A DNA stretch of 64,000 nt from Chitinophaga agri. GTDB taxonomy: Bacteria > Bacteroidota > Bacteroidia > Chitinophagales > Chitinophagaceae. The stretch's first letter is position 1, and each line of letters starts with the position of its first letter. The stretch spans positions 3,472,001 through 3,536,000 of the forward strand of contig NZ_CP048113.1 in NCBI RefSeq assembly GCF_010093065.1. The letters run 5' to 3'. Shown one piece after another: positions 1 through 6,301 of this stretch. Under the pieces are notes generated by a model. It saw only the letters and a list, made by a program, of their open reading frames with translations. It was not told the origin of the DNA and did not search any database. Position numbers and translations under genes: made by a program.

Positions 1-21
1 GCGGCATACTATGGACATAAT

Positions 22-54
22 CTAAAGAATTTAGTACATTACTAACAAAATTAG
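22..54. promoter_or_regulatory. Tandem palindromic operator CTAA-N5-TTAG (x2) upstream of gene 1
   Basis: Two copies of the 13-bp palindrome CTAA-N5-TTAG lie at 22-34 and 42-54, with centres 20 bp apart. A TAATTTTT stretch at 59-66, close to the Bacteroidota -7 box TAnnTTTG, follows the second copy. The same paired arrangement with 19-bp spacing precedes dinB at 1747-1778. I infer that one dimeric repressor or activator controls both loci. The protein itself is not in the window. Confidence 0.6.
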
Positions 55-131
55 CATATAATTTTTATAATAACCAAATATATTCCGGTCTGCTTGACTT
101 ATTTTTGCCGCGTAAAATCCAACTCAATATT

Positions 132-593
132 ATGAATGACACCTTAGTAACTATTCACTCGCTGTTAAGATGGGCAATTGTACTGACCGGTATATGGGCA
201 GTCATCCGCGCATTGAAAGGCGTTAGTGGTAACTCAGCTTACACCGGCGCTGATAAGAAAGCAGGCCTCTTCTTCATGATCTCTCTCGATATTCAGTTAC
301 TGGTAGGTTTAGTACTGTACTTCGTTAGTCCACTGGCCATGAAAGCATTTCAGGCAAGCGGCGGCGCAGTAATGAAAGACAGCACCCTGCGTTACTTTGC
401 GGTAGAACATGCATTGATTGCGATCGTAGCCATTGCGCTTGTTCACATTGGCCGTGCTAAAGTGAAAAAAGCTGCATCCGATGCACAAAGACATAAACTG
501 TCCCTGATATTCTTTGCCATTGCGCTGATCCTGCTGGCATCCCGTATTCCATGGCCGTTCACGGCTGCAGGCGCTGGCAGAGGCTGGTTCTAG
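132..593 (+). CDS. Small four-helix membrane protein, cytochrome b-like
   Basis: A 153-residue hydrophobic protein with four predicted membrane helices, at about residues 8-25, 44-62, 85-103 and 120-137. A His near the N-terminus (IHSLLRW), an EHAL motif and an ALVHIGR motif sit in or beside helices, as expected of haem ligands. Small proteins of this shape in Bacteroidota are often annotated as cytochrome B, but I cannot confirm haem binding. The ATG at 132 is preferred over the TTG at 105, which lies in the promoter-leader region. It is followed by a rho-independent terminator, so it is probably monocistronic. The paired palindromes upstream suggest co-regulation with the dinB-dnaE cassette. 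A role in redox or membrane stress is inference only. Confidence 0.6.
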   Translation: MNDTLVTIHSLLRWAIVLTGIWAVIRALKGVSGNSAYTGADKKAGLFFMISLDIQLLVGLVLYFVSPLAMKAFQASGGAVMKDSTLRYFAVEHALIAIVAIALVHIGRAKVKKAASDAQRHKLSLIFFAIALILLASRIPWPFTAAGAGRGWF

Positions 594-956
594 TATACAA
601 CAACAAGCTATTATAAAAAAGAGATCGTCTCAGGGCGATCTCTTTTTTTATACTCGTAAACGTACAAGAGGGCTGTCAGCCTCTGGCAGGACACCCCTCC
701 TGATGCTGTCAACTGATACAATTTTGACGACTATCCGCCGCCTGGCCGTCGCTAGTTCGTCGCTAGCAGGTCGCTTGTTCTTCCCTTGCTTCAGTGACAG
801 CTACGTCTCCAAAAACTATAAAGCATTACAAATCAGGCAATTACTTTTACCTACCAATAACATAAGGACTGTTATTAATATCAAAATAGTATCAGTGTAT
901 CACTGACGCTGTTGTAGCGGCATGTGTTACTATGCCAGGTAGACCACCTTAGTGTA
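594..956. other. Intergenic stretch between two converging genes
   Basis: A 363-bp gap holding the terminator at 614-650 and a short hairpin at 892-906 (TCAGTG-TAT-CACTGA). On the minus strand that hairpin is followed by a T-rich stretch and could end the SdpI-like transcript. An open frame at 703-906 has no recognisable features and no ATG-plus-promoter context. I see no gene here. Confidence 0.5.
614..650 (+). terminator. Rho-independent terminator of gene 1
   Basis: The inverted repeat AGAGATCG / CGATCTCT encloses a short loop and is followed by a run of seven T, just after the stop codon at 593. The A-rich left flank means it could also act on the other strand. Confidence 0.8.
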
Positions 957-1637
957 TTAACCTTTATCCGTATTAAACAGCCGGTACGAATAGATATAGG
1001 GCAGTGCTGCCAGTATCCCTCCGATAAATATCAGCAGGAAAGTGCCGGTCACTACCGGTAAAAAGAATCCGGCTATGATGGTCGCCGCCCCGGTACATAC
1101 CCATAGATTACCTGCGAATGCGTGGGTTTCACGCCATATATCCTCGCTTTTTAATGTCCATGGTGTACGGACGCCCACAAAGTAGTTAGGCTCCAGACGG
1201 CGCAGGAAAAGGCCAATCGTACCGATCAGCAGCCCGGTTCCTGTAAAGACCCAGCGTTCTATAGCGAACGGATGTCCCTGACTAGCCATAAATACGATGG
1301 CAGCAGTAAAAATAGCCAGGTAGATATGGATCATGAAACGGATCTGGTAGTATTTCTTTTGAAACAATGCCATTTCCTGGGGATTGTGTTCGATATCCTC
1401 TTCTTCCACATGAGGTATATACCTGAACAGAAAATATAACAACAGATTGGTAAGGAACAAAAAGGTCATCAGTAATAAAAAGTCACTCTTGTTGCCAATA
1501 CGGTCGGCTACACCATTAACACTGAAGTTAGTCGGCATAACGCTTGGCAGCGAAGGCCAGATAATTCCCAGATAAGCCATGGGCATTATCAGTAATAACA
1601 ATAACAGCAGTTCCTGGCCAATATCAGGCTTTTTCAT
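957..1637 (-). CDS. SdpI-family integral membrane protein (DUF1648 + SdpI)
   Basis: A 226-residue protein with about six membrane helices. The N-terminal part resembles DUF1648 (PSLPSVMPTNFSVNGVADRIGNKS, seen in pieces). The C-terminal half carries the SdpI signature VGVRTPWTLKSEDIW followed by TH. In Bacillus, SdpI gives immunity to the SdpC toxin, and many homologues are of unknown role. No toxin or SdpR-type regulator is adjacent, so immunity is not implied. It is divergent from dinB across a 280-bp gap containing the CTAA-N5-TTAG pair, which could also affect this promoter. The family call is firm; the function is not. Confidence 0.8.
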   Translation of the reverse strand: MKKPDIGQELLLLLLLIMPMAYLGIIWPSLPSVMPTNFSVNGVADRIGNKSDFLLLMTFLFLTNLLLYFLFRYIPHVEEEDIEHNPQEMALFQKKYYQIRFMIHIYLAIFTAAIVFMASQGHPFAIERWVFTGTGLLIGTIGLFLRRLEPNYFVGVRTPWTLKSEDIWRETHAFAGNLWVCTGAATIIAGFFLPVVTGTFLLIFIGGILAALPYIYSYRLFNTDKG

Positions 1638-1746
1638 GAGAAAGTGTTTTGTTGATAACTATGTTTGACAAATAGCATACCTGCTTGGAGCACATATAGT
1701 TAATAACCATTATCCCCCCCGATTTGTTATTGATTGGTTATGCATA

Positions 1747-1786
1747 CTAATTTTATTAGCATGAACTAAAAATATTAGTAAATTTG
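1747..1786 (+). promoter_or_regulatory. dinB promoter with tandem CTAA-N5-TTAG operators
   Basis: CTAA-TTTTA-TTAG at 1747-1759 and CTAA-AAATA-TTAG at 1766-1778 flank the expected -33 region. TAAATTTG at 1779-1786 matches the Bacteroidota -7 box TAnnTTTG and abuts the second palindrome. This placement would let a bound dimer block RNA polymerase. The expected start of transcription is near 1792. A LexA/S24-like repressor is a reasonable guess because the genes downstream encode translesion polymerases, but the identity is inferred. Confidence 0.6.
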
Positions 1787-1790
1787 GGCT

Positions 1791-1897
1791 GAATGATTGT
1801 TCACAGGTGATGATCTGTGAATGAGCAGCCTCCCCGGTCATAGCCTGTGCTCTTTTTCCGGCTGCCTTCACTGCTTATCGCCCGTGAACAACCATTC
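1791..1897 (+). promoter_or_regulatory. Long imperfect palindrome filling the dinB 5' leader
   Basis: Arm 1791-1804 (GAATGATTGTTCAC) pairs with 1884-1897 (GTGAACAACCATTC) with one mismatch. Further in, GTGAA and GCAGCC at 1817-1830 pair with GGCTGC and TTCAC at 1860-1871. A local hairpin TCACAG/CTGTGA (1801-1806 / 1815-1820) would compete. The predicted transcript starts almost exactly at the palindrome, so the mRNA leader could fold as one long stem ending 20 nt before the dinB ATG. It may be a structured leader or attenuator; the function is unknown. Confidence 0.5.
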
Positions 1898-1917
1898 ATA
1901 ACCATTACCAAACTTGT

Positions 1918-3132
1918 ATGATTTCTTTGCAACACAGGTCCATTGCTCATTTTGACATGGACAGCTTCTTCGTATCAGTGGAATGCAGGGATGATAACAG
2001 CCTGAAGGGAAAACCACTGCTTGTCGGAGGTATGAGCGACCGGGGCGTGGTAGCTGCCTGTAGCTATGAAGCCCGCCGCTATGGCATTCATTCGGCTATG
2101 CCGATGAAAGTTGCGCTCAAACTGTGCCCGCATGCTATTGTCAGACGGGGAGATATGGAGAAATACAGCAACGTATCCCGTGAGGTGACCGGACTCATTG
2201 CTGACAAAGCCCCCCTGTACGAGAAATCATCTATCGACGAATTCTACCTTGACCTCACTGGTATGGATAAGTTCTTCGGCTCCATGAAATGGACTGTGGA
2301 ACTTCGTCAGCACATCATGAAAGAGATGCAGTTGCCCGTTTCCTTCGGTCTGGCGTCTAACAAAATGATATCCAAGGTGGCCACCAATGAGGCCAAGCCT
2401 AACGGACAAATGGAGATCCATTTCGGAGAAGAAAAATCTTTCCTCGCGCCAATGCCAGTGGAAAAGCTCCCCATGGTGGGTAAGGAAACAGCCAGTCAGC
2501 TACACCGGCGCGGCGTAGAAACGGTCAAAACACTGAGTGAAATACCCGTCTCCCTGCTTGAGGCATGGCTGGGCAAGAACGGCATCTCCCTGTGGAACAA
2601 GGCAAACGGTATCGACGAGTCCCCTGTTGTACCGTACCATGAACAAAAGTCCATCTCCACCGAAAATACCTTTCACACTGACACAATAGATATGCAGTTC
2701 ATCCATGCAGAACTTGTACGGATGACAGAAAAAATAGCTTTCGAACTGAGACAACAAAACAAACTCACCGGCTGTGTTACCGTAAAGATCCGCTACTCGG
2801 ATTTTGAAACTGTTACCAAACAGATGACCATTCCGTATTCCAGCAGCGACCACGTCCTCCTGGAAAAAGTAAAAGAGCTGTTTCAGAAACTCTATGACAG
2901 AAGACTCCTGATCCGCCTGATCGGCGTCCGTTTCAGTCATCTCGTACATGGCAACCATCAGATCAGCCTGTTCGATGATACCCAGGAAATGATCTCGCTC
3001 TATCAGGCCATAGATAACATTAAAAACCGCTTCGGATGGCAATACCTGATGCGGGGCACCAACGCAGGCGCTCAATCGAAAAAAGGGGCTGTAAAACAGC
3101 CTGATATCATACCCTATCCTAAAGTGAGATAA
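1918..3132 (+). CDS. dinB: DNA polymerase IV, Y-family translesion polymerase
   Basis: A 404-residue DinB/UmuC-family polymerase that copies damaged DNA at low fidelity. The first catalytic motif FDMDSFF (Asp13, aromatic steric gate at 17-18) and the second, SSIDEFYLDL (Asp107, Glu108), are intact, so it should be active. It has the palm, finger, thumb and little-finger layout. QISLFD near residues 348-353 fits a beta-clamp binding motif of the QxxLF type. It starts at the ATG at 1918 and is separated by only 10 nt from the dnaE homologue downstream, so the two form an operon. Its length is slightly above the ~350 of classical DinB because of the C-terminal tail. Expression is probably damage-inducible through the paired operators. 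Confidence 0.9.
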   Translation: MISLQHRSIAHFDMDSFFVSVECRDDNSLKGKPLLVGGMSDRGVVAACSYEARRYGIHSAMPMKVALKLCPHAIVRRGDMEKYSNVSREVTGLIADKAPLYEKSSIDEFYLDLTGMDKFFGSMKWTVELRQHIMKEMQLPVSFGLASNKMISKVATNEAKPNGQMEIHFGEEKSFLAPMPVEKLPMVGKETASQLHRRGVETVKTLSEIPVSLLEAWLGKNGISLWNKANGIDESPVVPYHEQKSISTENTFHTDTIDMQFIHAELVRMTEKIAFELRQQNKLTGCVTVKIRYSDFETVTKQMTIPYSSSDHVLLEKVKELFQKLYDRRLLIRLIGVRFSHLVHGNHQISLFDDTQEMISLYQAIDNIKNRFGWQYLMRGTNAGAQSKKGAVKQPDIIPYPKVR

Positions 3133-3142
3133 ACCAACGCTT

Positions 3143-6091
3143 ATGTTTCTCAACTGCAAAACATTCTTCAGTCTGCGCTACGGCACCATCGATACAAAAG
3201 ATCTGGTGAAGTATGCCCGCGAAATGGGTGTCACTTCCCTTGCCCTCACAAATATCAATATCACTTCCGATACCTGGAACTTCGTAAAAGAATGTCAGGA
3301 AAACGGCATTAAGCCTATTATCGGACTGGAATGCAGGAACGGCCACCAACTGAAATATATACTGCTGGCACGCGACTTAGACGGATGGTTTTATATCAAC
3401 AGGTTCCTGTCAGATCACCTGCATAAAGGGCTTGACTTTCCCGACCGCGCACCCGGGTTTCCCGGCGTGTTTGCCATTTATACATGGAATACCGTTCCAC
3501 TACAGGATCTCTATGATCATGAACTCGTCGGCATCCGCAAACGTGACATCAATAAACTGTTTCGTGTAAACACCACTGAATGGAAAGACAAACTCGTTAT
3601 CCTCCACCCGGTCACCTTTCAGAATGATGATTACTACCAGTTGCATCGTGTGTTACGTGCCGTTGATCAGAATATTCTTATCAGTCAGCTGGAGCCGCAT
3701 ACCACGGCACATCCGGACGAGCAGTTCCTGTCACCAGCTGCTTTGTTTGACTGCTTCGAACAATACCCCGACATCATCAGTAATACCGTACGTATTATGG
3801 ATGCCTGCCGGATACAGTTTGATTTTAAAACACCCCGCAATAAAAAATACTTTACCAGCAGCGAAGCAGAAGACCATGCCCTGCTACGGAAGCTTGCCTA
3901 TGAAGGCATGCTGGAACGCTATGGTCCTGACAACGCAGAGGCGAAGGAACGTATTGAAAAAGAACTGGAAGTTGTACAGGGACAACATTTCAACGGCTAT
4001 TTCCTGATCACCTGGGACATCATCCGATATGCGCGGGAAAGCGGCTTTTTTTATGTTGGACGAGGCAGCGGCGCCAATTCTATCCTGGCCTATTGTTTAA
4101 AAATAACAGATGTCGATCCGATAGCACTTAATCTCTATTTCGAAAGATTTCTTAACCCATATCGTAGTTCACCTCCTGATTTTGATATCGACTTTTCCTG
4201 GAAAGACAGGGATGAGATCATTGAGTATGTATTCAAAAAGTACGGTGCTGCGCATACCGCCTTACTGGGTACCGTCACTACCTTCCAGCAGAATGCAGTG
4301 ATACGTGAACTGGGAAAAGTTTACGGATTACCTAAACATGAAATAGACAAAATACTGGACACGCCATTTGCACCTGATCTCTCAGGCGATAGCGTACAGC
4401 AAACCATCCTGCGATATAGTAAGATGATGTCTAACGACAATAAATCCTTTCCCAATCATCTCAGCATCCATGCGGGGGGTATACTGATCAGCGAAGCGCC
4501 TATCCATCAGCATTGCAGTACGTACCTTCCTCCCAAAGGATTCAGTACGGCCCAACTGGACATGCATCAGGCGGAGGCTATCGGGCTATTCAAATTTGAT
4601 ATACTTAGTCAGCGGGGCCTGGGACATATACGCGATGCGATCAGTATCATCAAGGAAAATAAAGGCGATGAAGTTGATATTCACGACGTAAAATCATTCA
4701 TGCGTGATGAGCGTGTTAAACAGGCATTGCAGACGGTCAACACGATCGGATGTTTTTATATAGAATCTCCGGCTATGCGGCAGTTGTTACAAAAACTGCA
4801 ATGCGGTGACTACCTGACACTGGTAGCCGCCAGTTCTGTTATACGTCCTGGTGTCGCACAATCAGGTATGATGCGGCAATATGTGCATAACTATCGTAAT
4901 CAGGATAAGGTAGAGTATCTCCATGACATCATCAAAGAGGTATTGAGTGAAACCTTCGGCATCATGGTCTACCAGGAAGATGTGATCAGGATAGTAAGCC
5001 GGTATGCAGAAATGGATCTGGCAGATGCAGATATTCTGCGAAGAGCGATGGCCGGTAAGTACCGCGGGCAGGGAGACTTTCAGAAAATAGAACAACAGTT
5101 CTTCAGCAACTGTAAACAGCTGGGAAGACCAGAAGCTGTGACGGCTGAACTATGGCGGCAGATATCGAGCTTCTCCGGTTTCTCTTTTTCAAAGGCCCAC
5201 TCTGCCAGCTTCGCGGTAGAGAGCTATCAGAGCCTTTTCCTGAAAACATATTATCCGGCGGAATTCATGGTAGCCGTGATCAATAACTTCGGTGGCTTTT
5301 ATAACAGGGAACTCTATTTCCGGGAATTACAAAAAACCGGTGCCGATATCAAACCACCCTGTATCAACAACAGTGACTATTACACGAGGATCACCGGTAA
5401 TACTGTGTATACAGGATTTATACACATCGAAGGACTCGAAGAAAAATGGATGGAACAGGTGCTCGAAGAACGTAAGCAGTACGGTCCCTATACCAGTCTG
5501 GAAGACTTCACTACCCGTATAGCGCCCCCACCGGAACAGCTGGATATACTCATCCGGATCGGCGCTTTTAATTTCGACAACTACACAAAGAAAGAGCTCC
5601 TGTGGAAAAGCAGCCTGTTACTGAAAGCCAAAACACCACATGCAGAGCATATACAGCCGCTGTTCCAGGAAGAATTACCAGATTGCCAGCTGCCCATGCT
5701 GTCTTATACCGAACATGAAAATGCATTTGAGGAAATAGCCTTGCTGGGCTTTCCGTTGTGCTCTCCTTTTTCTATTCTGCAACATGATCAGCGTAGATAT
5801 ATTACAGCCGATGCCTTCAAACGCTACGAAGGAAAAACGATTACAGCCCTGGGATATCTGGTATGTACAAAAGGCATTTATACCAGCAAAGGCATACCTA
5901 TGAGCTTCGGTACCTTTATGGATGTGAACGGAGACTTTATTGATACGGTACATTTTCCTGATATCCTGCGTGCCTACCCTTTCCAGAAAAACGGGTTTTA
6001 CATCCTGCAGGGGAAGGTCACCGCTGAATATGATGTCTATTCAATAGAGATCAGTTATATGCGGAAAATCGGCTACTTTGAGGATAAATAA
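3143..6091 (+). CDS. Second DNA polymerase III alpha-type subunit (DnaE2-like, error-prone class)
   Basis: A 982-residue C-family polymerase, shorter than a replicative DnaE (about 1150 or more). The palm aspartates are present: PDFDIDF (Asp346 and Asp348) and the KFD motif (Asp486). The fingers and HhH region is also present, as is a C-terminal OB fold at roughly 870-970. The N-terminal PHP domain is recognisable, but its opening metal motif, normally HxHS, reads NCKTFFSL. No PHP-type nuclease or proofreading activity is therefore expected. Co-transcription with dinB parallels the ImuB-DnaE2 mutasome of other phyla. I infer a Bacteroidota mutasome for induced translesion synthesis. No imuA or lexA is visible here. 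Confidence 0.85.
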   Translation: MFLNCKTFFSLRYGTIDTKDLVKYAREMGVTSLALTNINITSDTWNFVKECQENGIKPIIGLECRNGHQLKYILLARDLDGWFYINRFLSDHLHKGLDFPDRAPGFPGVFAIYTWNTVPLQDLYDHELVGIRKRDINKLFRVNTTEWKDKLVILHPVTFQNDDYYQLHRVLRAVDQNILISQLEPHTTAHPDEQFLSPAALFDCFEQYPDIISNTVRIMDACRIQFDFKTPRNKKYFTSSEAEDHALLRKLAYEGMLERYGPDNAEAKERIEKELEVVQGQHFNGYFLITWDIIRYARESGFFYVGRGSGANSILAYCLKITDVDPIALNLYFERFLNPYRSSPPDFDIDFSWKDRDEIIEYVFKKYGAAHTALLGTVTTFQQNAVIRELGKVYGLPKHEIDKILDTPFAPDLSGDSVQQTILRYSKMMSNDNKSFPNHLSIHAGGILISEAPIHQHCSTYLPPKGFSTAQLDMHQAEAIGLFKFDILSQRGLGHIRDAISIIKENKGDEVDIHDVKSFMRDERVKQALQTVNTIGCFYIESPAMRQLLQKLQCGDYLTLVAASSVIRPGVAQSGMMRQYVHNYRNQDKVEYLHDIIKEVLSETFGIMVYQEDVIRIVSRYAEMDLADADILRRAMAGKYRGQGDFQKIEQQFFSNCKQLGRPEAVTAELWRQISSFSGFSFSKAHSASFAVESYQSLFLKTYYPAEFMVAVINNFGGFYNRELYFRELQKTGADIKPPCINNSDYYTRITGNTVYTGFIHIEGLEEKWMEQVLEERKQYGPYTSLEDFTTRIAPPPEQLDILIRIGAFNFDNYTKKELLWKSSLLLKAKTPHAEHIQPLFQEELPDCQLPMLSYTEHENAFEEIALLGFPLCSPFSILQHDQRRYITADAFKRYEGKTITALGYLVCTKGIYTSKGIPMSFGTFMDVNGDFIDTVHFPDILRAYPFQKNGFYILQGKVTAEYDVYSIEISYMRKIGYFEDK

Positions 6092-6301
6092 CAACTAATC
6101 AACACTATACAATTCAATATACTATTTCAGGAAAACCAAAACAATATAATTTTATTTCCTATTTTAGCCTTTCGAATAATATATGAATCAGGGGACAATT
6201 TGTAATTCCTAACACCTCGAAAAACATACAATATACCAATACGCCGTATAAGAAACAGGTACTATTCCTATACAGCAATGAGCAAATAACACTATCAACC
6301 T

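Follow-up and report, generated by a model that had tools for sequence, protein, structure and literature searches.

Tandem CTAA-N5-TTAG sites as probable operators of a phage-CI-like S24 repressor of SOS genes in Chitinophaga agri

Introduction

The SOS response of Bacteroidetes is run by a CI-like S24 repressor with the motif CTAA-N5-TTAG as its operator (Sanchez-Osuna et al. 2021, PMC8565304). The main text of that study presents gel shifts, operator mutagenesis and reverse-transcription quantitative PCR of mitomycin C induction in P. actiniarum, names the Chitinophagaceae as one of the families whose regulons are large, and describes two or more motif instances at several genes; its two tested proteins come from P. 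actiniarum and S. agarivorans (PMC8565304). It was the one title on Bacteroidetes LexA among the results of our literature searches on the motif, on cooperativity and on later work. Here, we analyzed a window, by which we mean the whole 64-kb stretch of DNA at positions 3472001-3536000 of the single-contig 7.97-Mb genome of Chitinophaga agri (G000:C1), in which the same motif occurs as two tandem pairs, one adjoining the gene of an XRE-S24 repressor and one preceding the dinB-dnaE genes.

The operators of phage lambda have centre distances of about 20-24 bp, and the operator of canonical LexA (E. coli, Bacillus) differs from CTAA-N5-TTAG. With canonical LexA, the Chitinophaga regulator shares the S24 C-terminal domain, the circuit logic and the target classes, but it has an all-helical, CI-type helix-turn-helix (HTH) domain and no winged helix. 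The DdrO repressor of Deinococcus is not known to have an S24 domain. In lambda, adjacent CI dimers pair on neighbouring operators (PMC5880393). A CI-type repressor with tandem operators (OR1-OR2 and OL1-OL2 in the phage) is common to both systems, although the Chitinophaga operator is 13 bp long, the pairs stand at several repair genes around the chromosome, and cooperativity would be an extrapolation here. DdrO resembles the present regulator as an XRE-type repressor of DNA-damage genes, and its regulon includes, within a cinA-ligT-recA operon, a gene for a 2'-5' RNA ligase comparable to the LigT-like target discussed below; it differs in being cleaved by a separate protease, IrrE, and in its motif (PMC5552922). 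The presence of ligT in the DdrO regulon is an independent parallel.

With the published Bacteroidetes LexA, the locus shares the 13-bp motif, a CI-type HTH plus S24 protein with Ala-Gly and Ser-Lys residues, the motif before its own gene, and the targets recA, dinB, imuA-imuB-dnaE2, splB and the UDG-linked operon; a spacing rule, cooperativity, a weakened recA site and a LigT-like target were not found in main-text parts of that paper, supplements aside (PMC8565304). We consider it highly probable (roughly 0.93) that the pairs are operators of an autoregulated, phage-CI-like S24 repressor (a non-canonical LexA) that represses the SOS genes of this Chitinophaga. Judged by sequence, the circuit is a member of the published non-canonical LexA/SOS system. 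Binding and induction are known from another Bacteroidete, and the evidence in Chitinophaga consists of the motif, the pairs, the targets, their conservation, and the domains and catalytic residues of the regulator.

Probable Operator Pairs in the Window and in the Genome

Exact matching found CTAA-N5-TTAG exactly four times in the window (Table 1), at the places given by an earlier note on this DNA, which had also correctly measured the centre distances as 20 bp for the pair 22-54 and 19 bp for the pair 1747-1778. In 100 dinucleotide shuffles of the window, the mean was 0.87 matches and the largest count three, and the two pairs observed at gaps of 0-30 bp compare with none in 300 such shuffles taken together. 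The gaps allowed in the other pair searches were 4-30 bp in the own genome, 5-9 bp in the genus, 0-30 bp in the family and 5-11 bp in the phylum sample. The whole genome held five pairs, every one with a gap of 6-8 bp, against none in the reversed control, so that pairs are not scattered over the genome at an equal random rate, the outcome by which the earlier note would have been refuted.

These five pairs lie before the XRE-S24 repressor gene, dinB-dnaE, imuA-imuB-dnaE2, TIGR03916-TIGR03915 and a PA0069-family gene. The UDG-linked operon consists of the TIGR03916 radical SAM gene with TIGR03915 after it, and the PA0069-family gene encodes an SPL-like radical SAM protein. NCBIfam cut-offs were passed by dnaE2, TIGR03916, TIGR03915 and PA0069, while imuB passes in Pfam only and ImuA is below its NCBIfam cut-off. 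The genome-wide search for single sites covered the spacers of the form CTAA-W5-TTAG and returned 20 forward matches, seven in pairs and 13 single, against seven in the control. Seven of the 13 single sites precede repair or target genes, at distances of 64 bp for recA, 81 bp for uvrA, 4 bp for an AlkB-like 2OG-Fe(II) oxygenase, 62 bp for a methyladenine glycosylase, 158 bp for an open reading frame (ORF) followed by a SRAP gene, 43 bp for a SWIM-domain protein and 79 bp for the LigT-like gene. The damage-responsive repressor of LexA/S24 type for mutasomes that the earlier note had proposed is supported by the S24 gene at the left edge of the window, by the pairs before these five DNA-repair or regulator genes, and by a relative whose repressor binds the motif and whose targets are induced by mitomycin C, as reported in the main text of that work (PMC8565304).

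The Regulator and Its Promoter

Reading 6 kb to the left of the window placed the ATG of the regulator at window positions 16-18. The protein carries an HTH_3 domain (PF01381, 3.6e-14) and a Peptidase_S24 domain (3.2e-10), both above the Pfam cut-off, and its closest named relatives among the matches listed are Chitinophaga proteins with 95% identity. Ala99-Gly100 and Ser136 are invariant in 33 aligned regulator sequences, and Lys175 is kept in at least 90% of them, with one outlier (L115) that reads as frameshifted. On the model of the S24 family, from which the catalytic role is assigned, Ala99-Gly100 would be the scissile bond and Ser136/Lys175 the Ser-Lys dyad. An AlphaFold model has five helices and no strand in residues 3-64, followed by an S24-like C-terminal domain, and Foldseek with this model placed lambda repressor first (E 4.7e-06) and LexA C-terminal domains among the next matches. 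Sequence matches in the PDB were only HTH proteins (e.g., ImmR, PezA and SinR), and the N-terminal domain matched ImmR, SinR and other HTH proteins in both sequence and fold. A winged-helix LexA DNA-binding domain was absent among the Pfam matches of the regulator, in keeping with the all-helical N-terminal domain of the model, and this separates it from canonical LexA. Four features of the non-canonical LexA of the CTAA group were found here: CI-type HTH with S24, Ala-Gly with Ser-Lys, the motif before its own gene, and an SOS regulon whose motif-bearing members include dinB, imuA-imuB-dnaE2, recA, the SPL-like gene, the UDG-linked operon, uvrA and others.

The conservation of the promoter was followed in the best 80 of 142 regulator matches in named genomes (loci L066-L145). 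Fifty of these (L066-L115) are termed Chitinophaga-like, comprising 48 titled Chitinophaga, one Flavihumibacter metagenome-assembled genome and one [Flexibacter], and the other 30 (L116-L145) come from other Chitinophagaceae and less precisely named Bacteroidetes. Two exact sites stand ahead of the regulator ATG in the own genome and in all 80 fetched relatives. Throughout these 81 loci the nearer site lies 1-7 bp ahead of the ATG (2-3 bp in 74), and the centre distance of the pair is 20 bp in 35 loci, 21 bp in two, 22 bp in ten, 23 bp in 23 and 24 bp in 11. A TAATTTTG or TAAATTTG box lies within the outer copy in the direction of the regulator in 51 of the 81, these being the own locus and the 50 Chitinophaga-like ones; the other 30 are without it there. 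Over 532,887 bases, the 50 Chitinophaga-like regulator loci contain 198 exact sites, one of them away from the regulator and dinB promoters.

The dinB-dnaE Promoter

Conservation ahead of dinB, on which the earlier note had staked its claim, was borne out: the syntenic pair is present in 48 of the 50 Chitinophaga-like loci (L085 has none and L108 one site), with a centre distance of 18 bp in 31 loci and of 19 bp in 17. Directly after the second copy stands the TA of the -7 box in 48/48 and the full TAnnTTTG in 28/48. A dinB match was found within the stretch in 45 of the 48 paired loci; L078 and L080 gave none, and the L095 stretch stops at the pair. The note had further stated that in each pair the second copy directly precedes a TAnnTTTG-like box. 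This holds at dinB and fails at gene 1, the membrane-protein gene next to the regulator, where only TAATTTTT (59-66) is found; the exact TAnnTTTG box in that region is TAATTTTG, on the minus strand within the site 42-54, and it is directed at the regulator. Box calls used TTTG / TAnnTTTG (-33 / -7), which we take to be the promoter consensus.

Table 1. Features of the regulator, gene 1 and dinB-dnaE promoter regions, in window coordinates
Feature	Position	Strand	Remarks
XRE-S24 repressor gene, first six codons	1-18	-	250 amino acids; whole gene G000:C1:3471266-3472018 (L006:5266-6018, minus strand), remainder left of the window
Operator copy nearest the regulator start codon	22-34		exact match; 3 bp ahead of the ATG
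Operator copy overlapping the regulator -7 box	42-54		exact match
Probable -7 box TAATTTTG of the regulator promoter	46-53	-	called from sequence with the assumed consensus
Probable -33 TTTG of the regulator promoter	75-78	-	spacer of 21 to the -7 box
Probable own -7 box of gene 1, TATTTTTG	100-107	+	TAnnTTTG in 31/31 sequences
Gene 1, membrane protein of 153 amino acids	132-593	+	relatives cytochrome B/b561 or hypothetical; probably outside the regulon
Upstream operator copy of dinB-dnaE	1747-1759		exact match; pair in 48/50 Chitinophaga-like loci
Downstream operator copy of dinB-dnaE	1766-1778		exact match; abuts the -7 box
-7 box TAAATTTG of dinB-dnaE	1779-1786	+	TAnnTTTG directly after the second copy
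dinB (DNA polymerase IV)	1918-3132	+	Pfam IMS, IMS_C; NCBIfam
dnaE-like DNA polymerase III alpha, 982 amino acids	3143-6091	+	Pfam DNA_pol3_alpha and others

Pairs across the Genus and the Family

All 79 genomes of the genus that were searched contain at least one pair (259 pairs in all by our own sum; control in 1/79), and at gaps of 0-30 bp so do 167 of 294 genomes of the family, against 34 of 294 for the control (hand count). In the phylum sample, 10/14 genomes of the family have a pair. The family search gave at least 76 forward pairs, of which the 76 listed are partly related and include seven from one genome, G197; 70 of them have centres 18-24 bp apart and the other six 26, 29, 29, 30, 32 and 43 bp. 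Forty pair regions drawn from the genus and family listings, mostly excluding the regulator and syntenic dinB, lie before a PA0069 gene (18), imuA (nine), a dinB (six), a UmuD-like S24 gene (three), a LigT-like gene (three) and a TIGR03916 gene (one). Among the 29 loci L146-L174 from the family search, 22 are regulators, four lie at dinB, dnaE, an exonuclease and a LigT/PA0069 unit, and three (L166, L168 and L169) at no recognized target. Centre distances differ by promoter, with 18-19 bp at dinB, 20-24 bp at the regulator and 21-22 bp at imuA and PA0069; a strict helical spacing rule was considered and found unsupported, the spacings of 18-24 bp forming a continuum.

In genome G197, one pair is repeated on different contigs (ten counted, seven listed, six of them near-identical), as if carried on a mobile element, and at L166:1501-1537 it is directly followed by a short reading frame that is cut off where the stretch ends.

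The Weakened recA Site and a Candidate LigT-like Target

The recA survey comprised 30 loci from 40 genomes searched. One exact site is present in 28 of them and, with one change, in the remaining two. Each of the 30 also carries an upstream site with one mismatch, which in 29 falls at position 4 only (T in 18, G in seven, C in four), at a distance from the full site of 29-32 bp in 28 loci and 21 bp in two. With seven of its eight letters kept and the eighth not A in 29/30, this upstream site looks tuned, a reading to be taken with the caveat that common ancestry inside one genus weakens the count.

The LigT-like gene encodes a 2'-5' RNA ligase-like protein (PF13563), and at least one exact site lies within 260 bp upstream in all 30 genus loci surveyed (40 genomes searched), as an exact pair in two, as an exact site with a one-mismatch partner in 12 and as a single site in 16. 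In other genera, where 74 of 98 genomes gave a match, 30 loci were surveyed, the query's own locus among them, and an exact site is present in 16 and absent in 14. In 25 of these 30, a PA0069 relative begins 624-1368 bp downstream and on the same strand (no more than 1100 bp in 22), and none turned up in the other five. We name LigT-like plus PA0069 radical SAM as a further candidate target, of a gene type that Deinococcus also has in its damage regulon, which is unrelated (PMC5552922). Our literature searches on LigT and RNA ligase, in the portions of the sources covered, returned no LexA- or S24-controlled LigT. In many family genomes (L299-L328, L254), second 2'-5' RNA ligase-like matches occur near the first, beside the PA0069 radical SAM gene.

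Proposed Circuit and Alternative Explanations

In undamaged cells, each pair would have repressor dimers on its two copies, probably next to one another as in lambda CI, covering the -7 box of the regulator at 22-54 and the stretch just before the dinB-dnaE -7 box at 1747-1778. Upon damage, RecA filaments would trigger self-cleavage of the repressor at the Ala-Gly bond, as presumed for Chitinophaga agri, and the genes would come on, the regulator included (autoregulation). Full pairs stand at the mutagenic polymerases, the regulator and the two radical SAM repair genes, and one full plus one weakened site at recA, an arrangement that would leave more basal RecA. We infer cooperative side-by-side binding, RecA-driven cleavage in this organism and graded repression, the first of these because a distance of 18-24 bp is common to promoters that differ in the position of the pair relative to the -7 box, and because the protein is CI-like.

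Several observations weigh against operator pairs of a CI-like repressor. Confidence in the structural model is modest (mean predicted local distance difference test score 71.8, predicted TM score 0.42), and the root-mean-square deviation of 17.6 in the full-length lambda repressor match makes that match meaningful only for the separate domains. Six of the 13 single CTAA-W5-TTAG sites lie at no recognized repair gene: two at unnamed ORFs, two with only short ORFs nearby and, by eye, one within an ORF close to a ribose-phosphate pyrophosphokinase-like gene and one before a metallo-hydrolase-like ORF. The spacing varies between promoters over 18-24 bp, the centres lie 26 or 29 bp from each other at some regulators of other genera, and single sites suffice for binding in the published system as far as its main text describes it (PMC8565304). 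Among the 381 genomes from outside the family, eight contain a pair and about 29 (hand count) the control at gaps of 5-11 bp, and a phylum-wide paired layout is accordingly unsupported, the pairs there not exceeding the control. Of these eight genomes, with one locus each, L265 has its pair before imuA and L263 about 1 kb from a dnaE2 stretch; the other six loci gave no match to twelve query proteins.

That the pairs are a chance or composition artefact of AT-rich promoters has a practically negligible probability: single matches to this AT-rich motif do arise by chance, as the CTAA-W5-TTAG control illustrates, but the pair shuffles, the reversed controls in window, genome and genus, and the conservation of the loci rule this reading out, and it was rejected on the window shuffles and the genome control. 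It is very improbable that another regulator, e.g., an unrelated XRE protein, uses the operators in place of the S24 protein; the motif was assigned in Chitinophaga by sequence match, yet two sites adjoin the S24 gene in 80/80 loci and the published regulator that binds the motif in vitro is itself of S24 type (PMC8565304, main text). A role of the pair 22-54 in also controlling gene 1, which would bring a membrane protein into the SOS response, is unlikely. In 50 of the 80 loci, comprising 50/50 Chitinophaga-like ones, tblastn places gene 1 upstream of the regulator and on the other strand, and the shared intergenic region could couple both genes. The other 30 regulator loci keep the pair while giving no tblastn match to gene 1 within the stretch examined, some of these stretches being short, and gene 1 has its own box 45 bp beyond the operators, conserved as TAnnTTTG in 31/31 intergenic sequences (the own one and 30 of the 50 loci) and as TATTTTTG in 29. 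Because the pair is kept ahead of the regulator in 80/80 loci, including the 30 in which gene 1 was not found, and because gene 1 has a box of its own, the pair appears to serve the regulator, with gene 1 as a neighbour. Membership of gene 1 in the regulon, as the earlier note had suggested, is thus judged unlikely. Gene 1 matches no Pfam or NCBIfam family, most of its best 120 of 200 relatives are unnamed or carry the names hypothetical or cytochrome B/b561, and no link to DNA repair was found in Pfam, NCBIfam or the names of relatives.

The two copies might instead act independently, the second merely widening the cover of the promoter as a road-block, with dimers that make no contact; we regard this as possible, at clearly less than even odds. 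It would agree with centre distances that are promoter-specific and with a nearer regulator site nearly fixed relative to the ATG, as if placed by the promoter. Against it, 70 of the 76 listed pairs keep their centres 18-24 bp apart at promoters with differing -7 box placement, which coverage alone would not force. Cooperative pairing can be joined with the other results into a tentative picture, one a little short of an even chance: the SOS response of Chitinophagaceae would run on phage-style tandem operators, with dimers pairing 18-24 bp apart and thresholds set by a full pair, by the recA pair with its weakened site (CTAB-N5-TTAG) or by a single site, and LigT-like plus PA0069 would form a repair module under SOS control that has not been described before.

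By sequence, the Bacteroidetes SOS circuit of the literature is very likely present in Chitinophaga agri, with its regulator and targets named and gene 1 an unlikely member, and the paired layout, the weakened recA site and the RNA-ligase-like target are candidate additions to it. The paired layout bears on whether a former phage repressor kept a cooperative switch after taking over a chromosomal stress response.

Neighbouring Features

An SdpI/DUF1648 membrane protein gene (957-1637, minus strand) is divergent from dinB and present in 50/50 Chitinophaga-like loci; it starts about 110 bp from the pair 1747-1778 and might share this operator. The dinB leader (1791-1917) is predicted to form a strong hairpin (-46.6 kcal/mol, z -7.2), and Rfam at gathering scores gave no match in 1-6200, this leader included. 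Among the dinB leaders of 24 loci, several are long, with other low-energy folds of different sequence, and others have only 28-60 nt; the hairpin might represent an inserted repeat or a control element in the leader. To the left of the regulator (L006:883-4924, plus strand), a large helicase-like protein, a metallophosphoesterase-like one and a histone-deacetylase-like one were recognized by eye, perhaps another repair unit.

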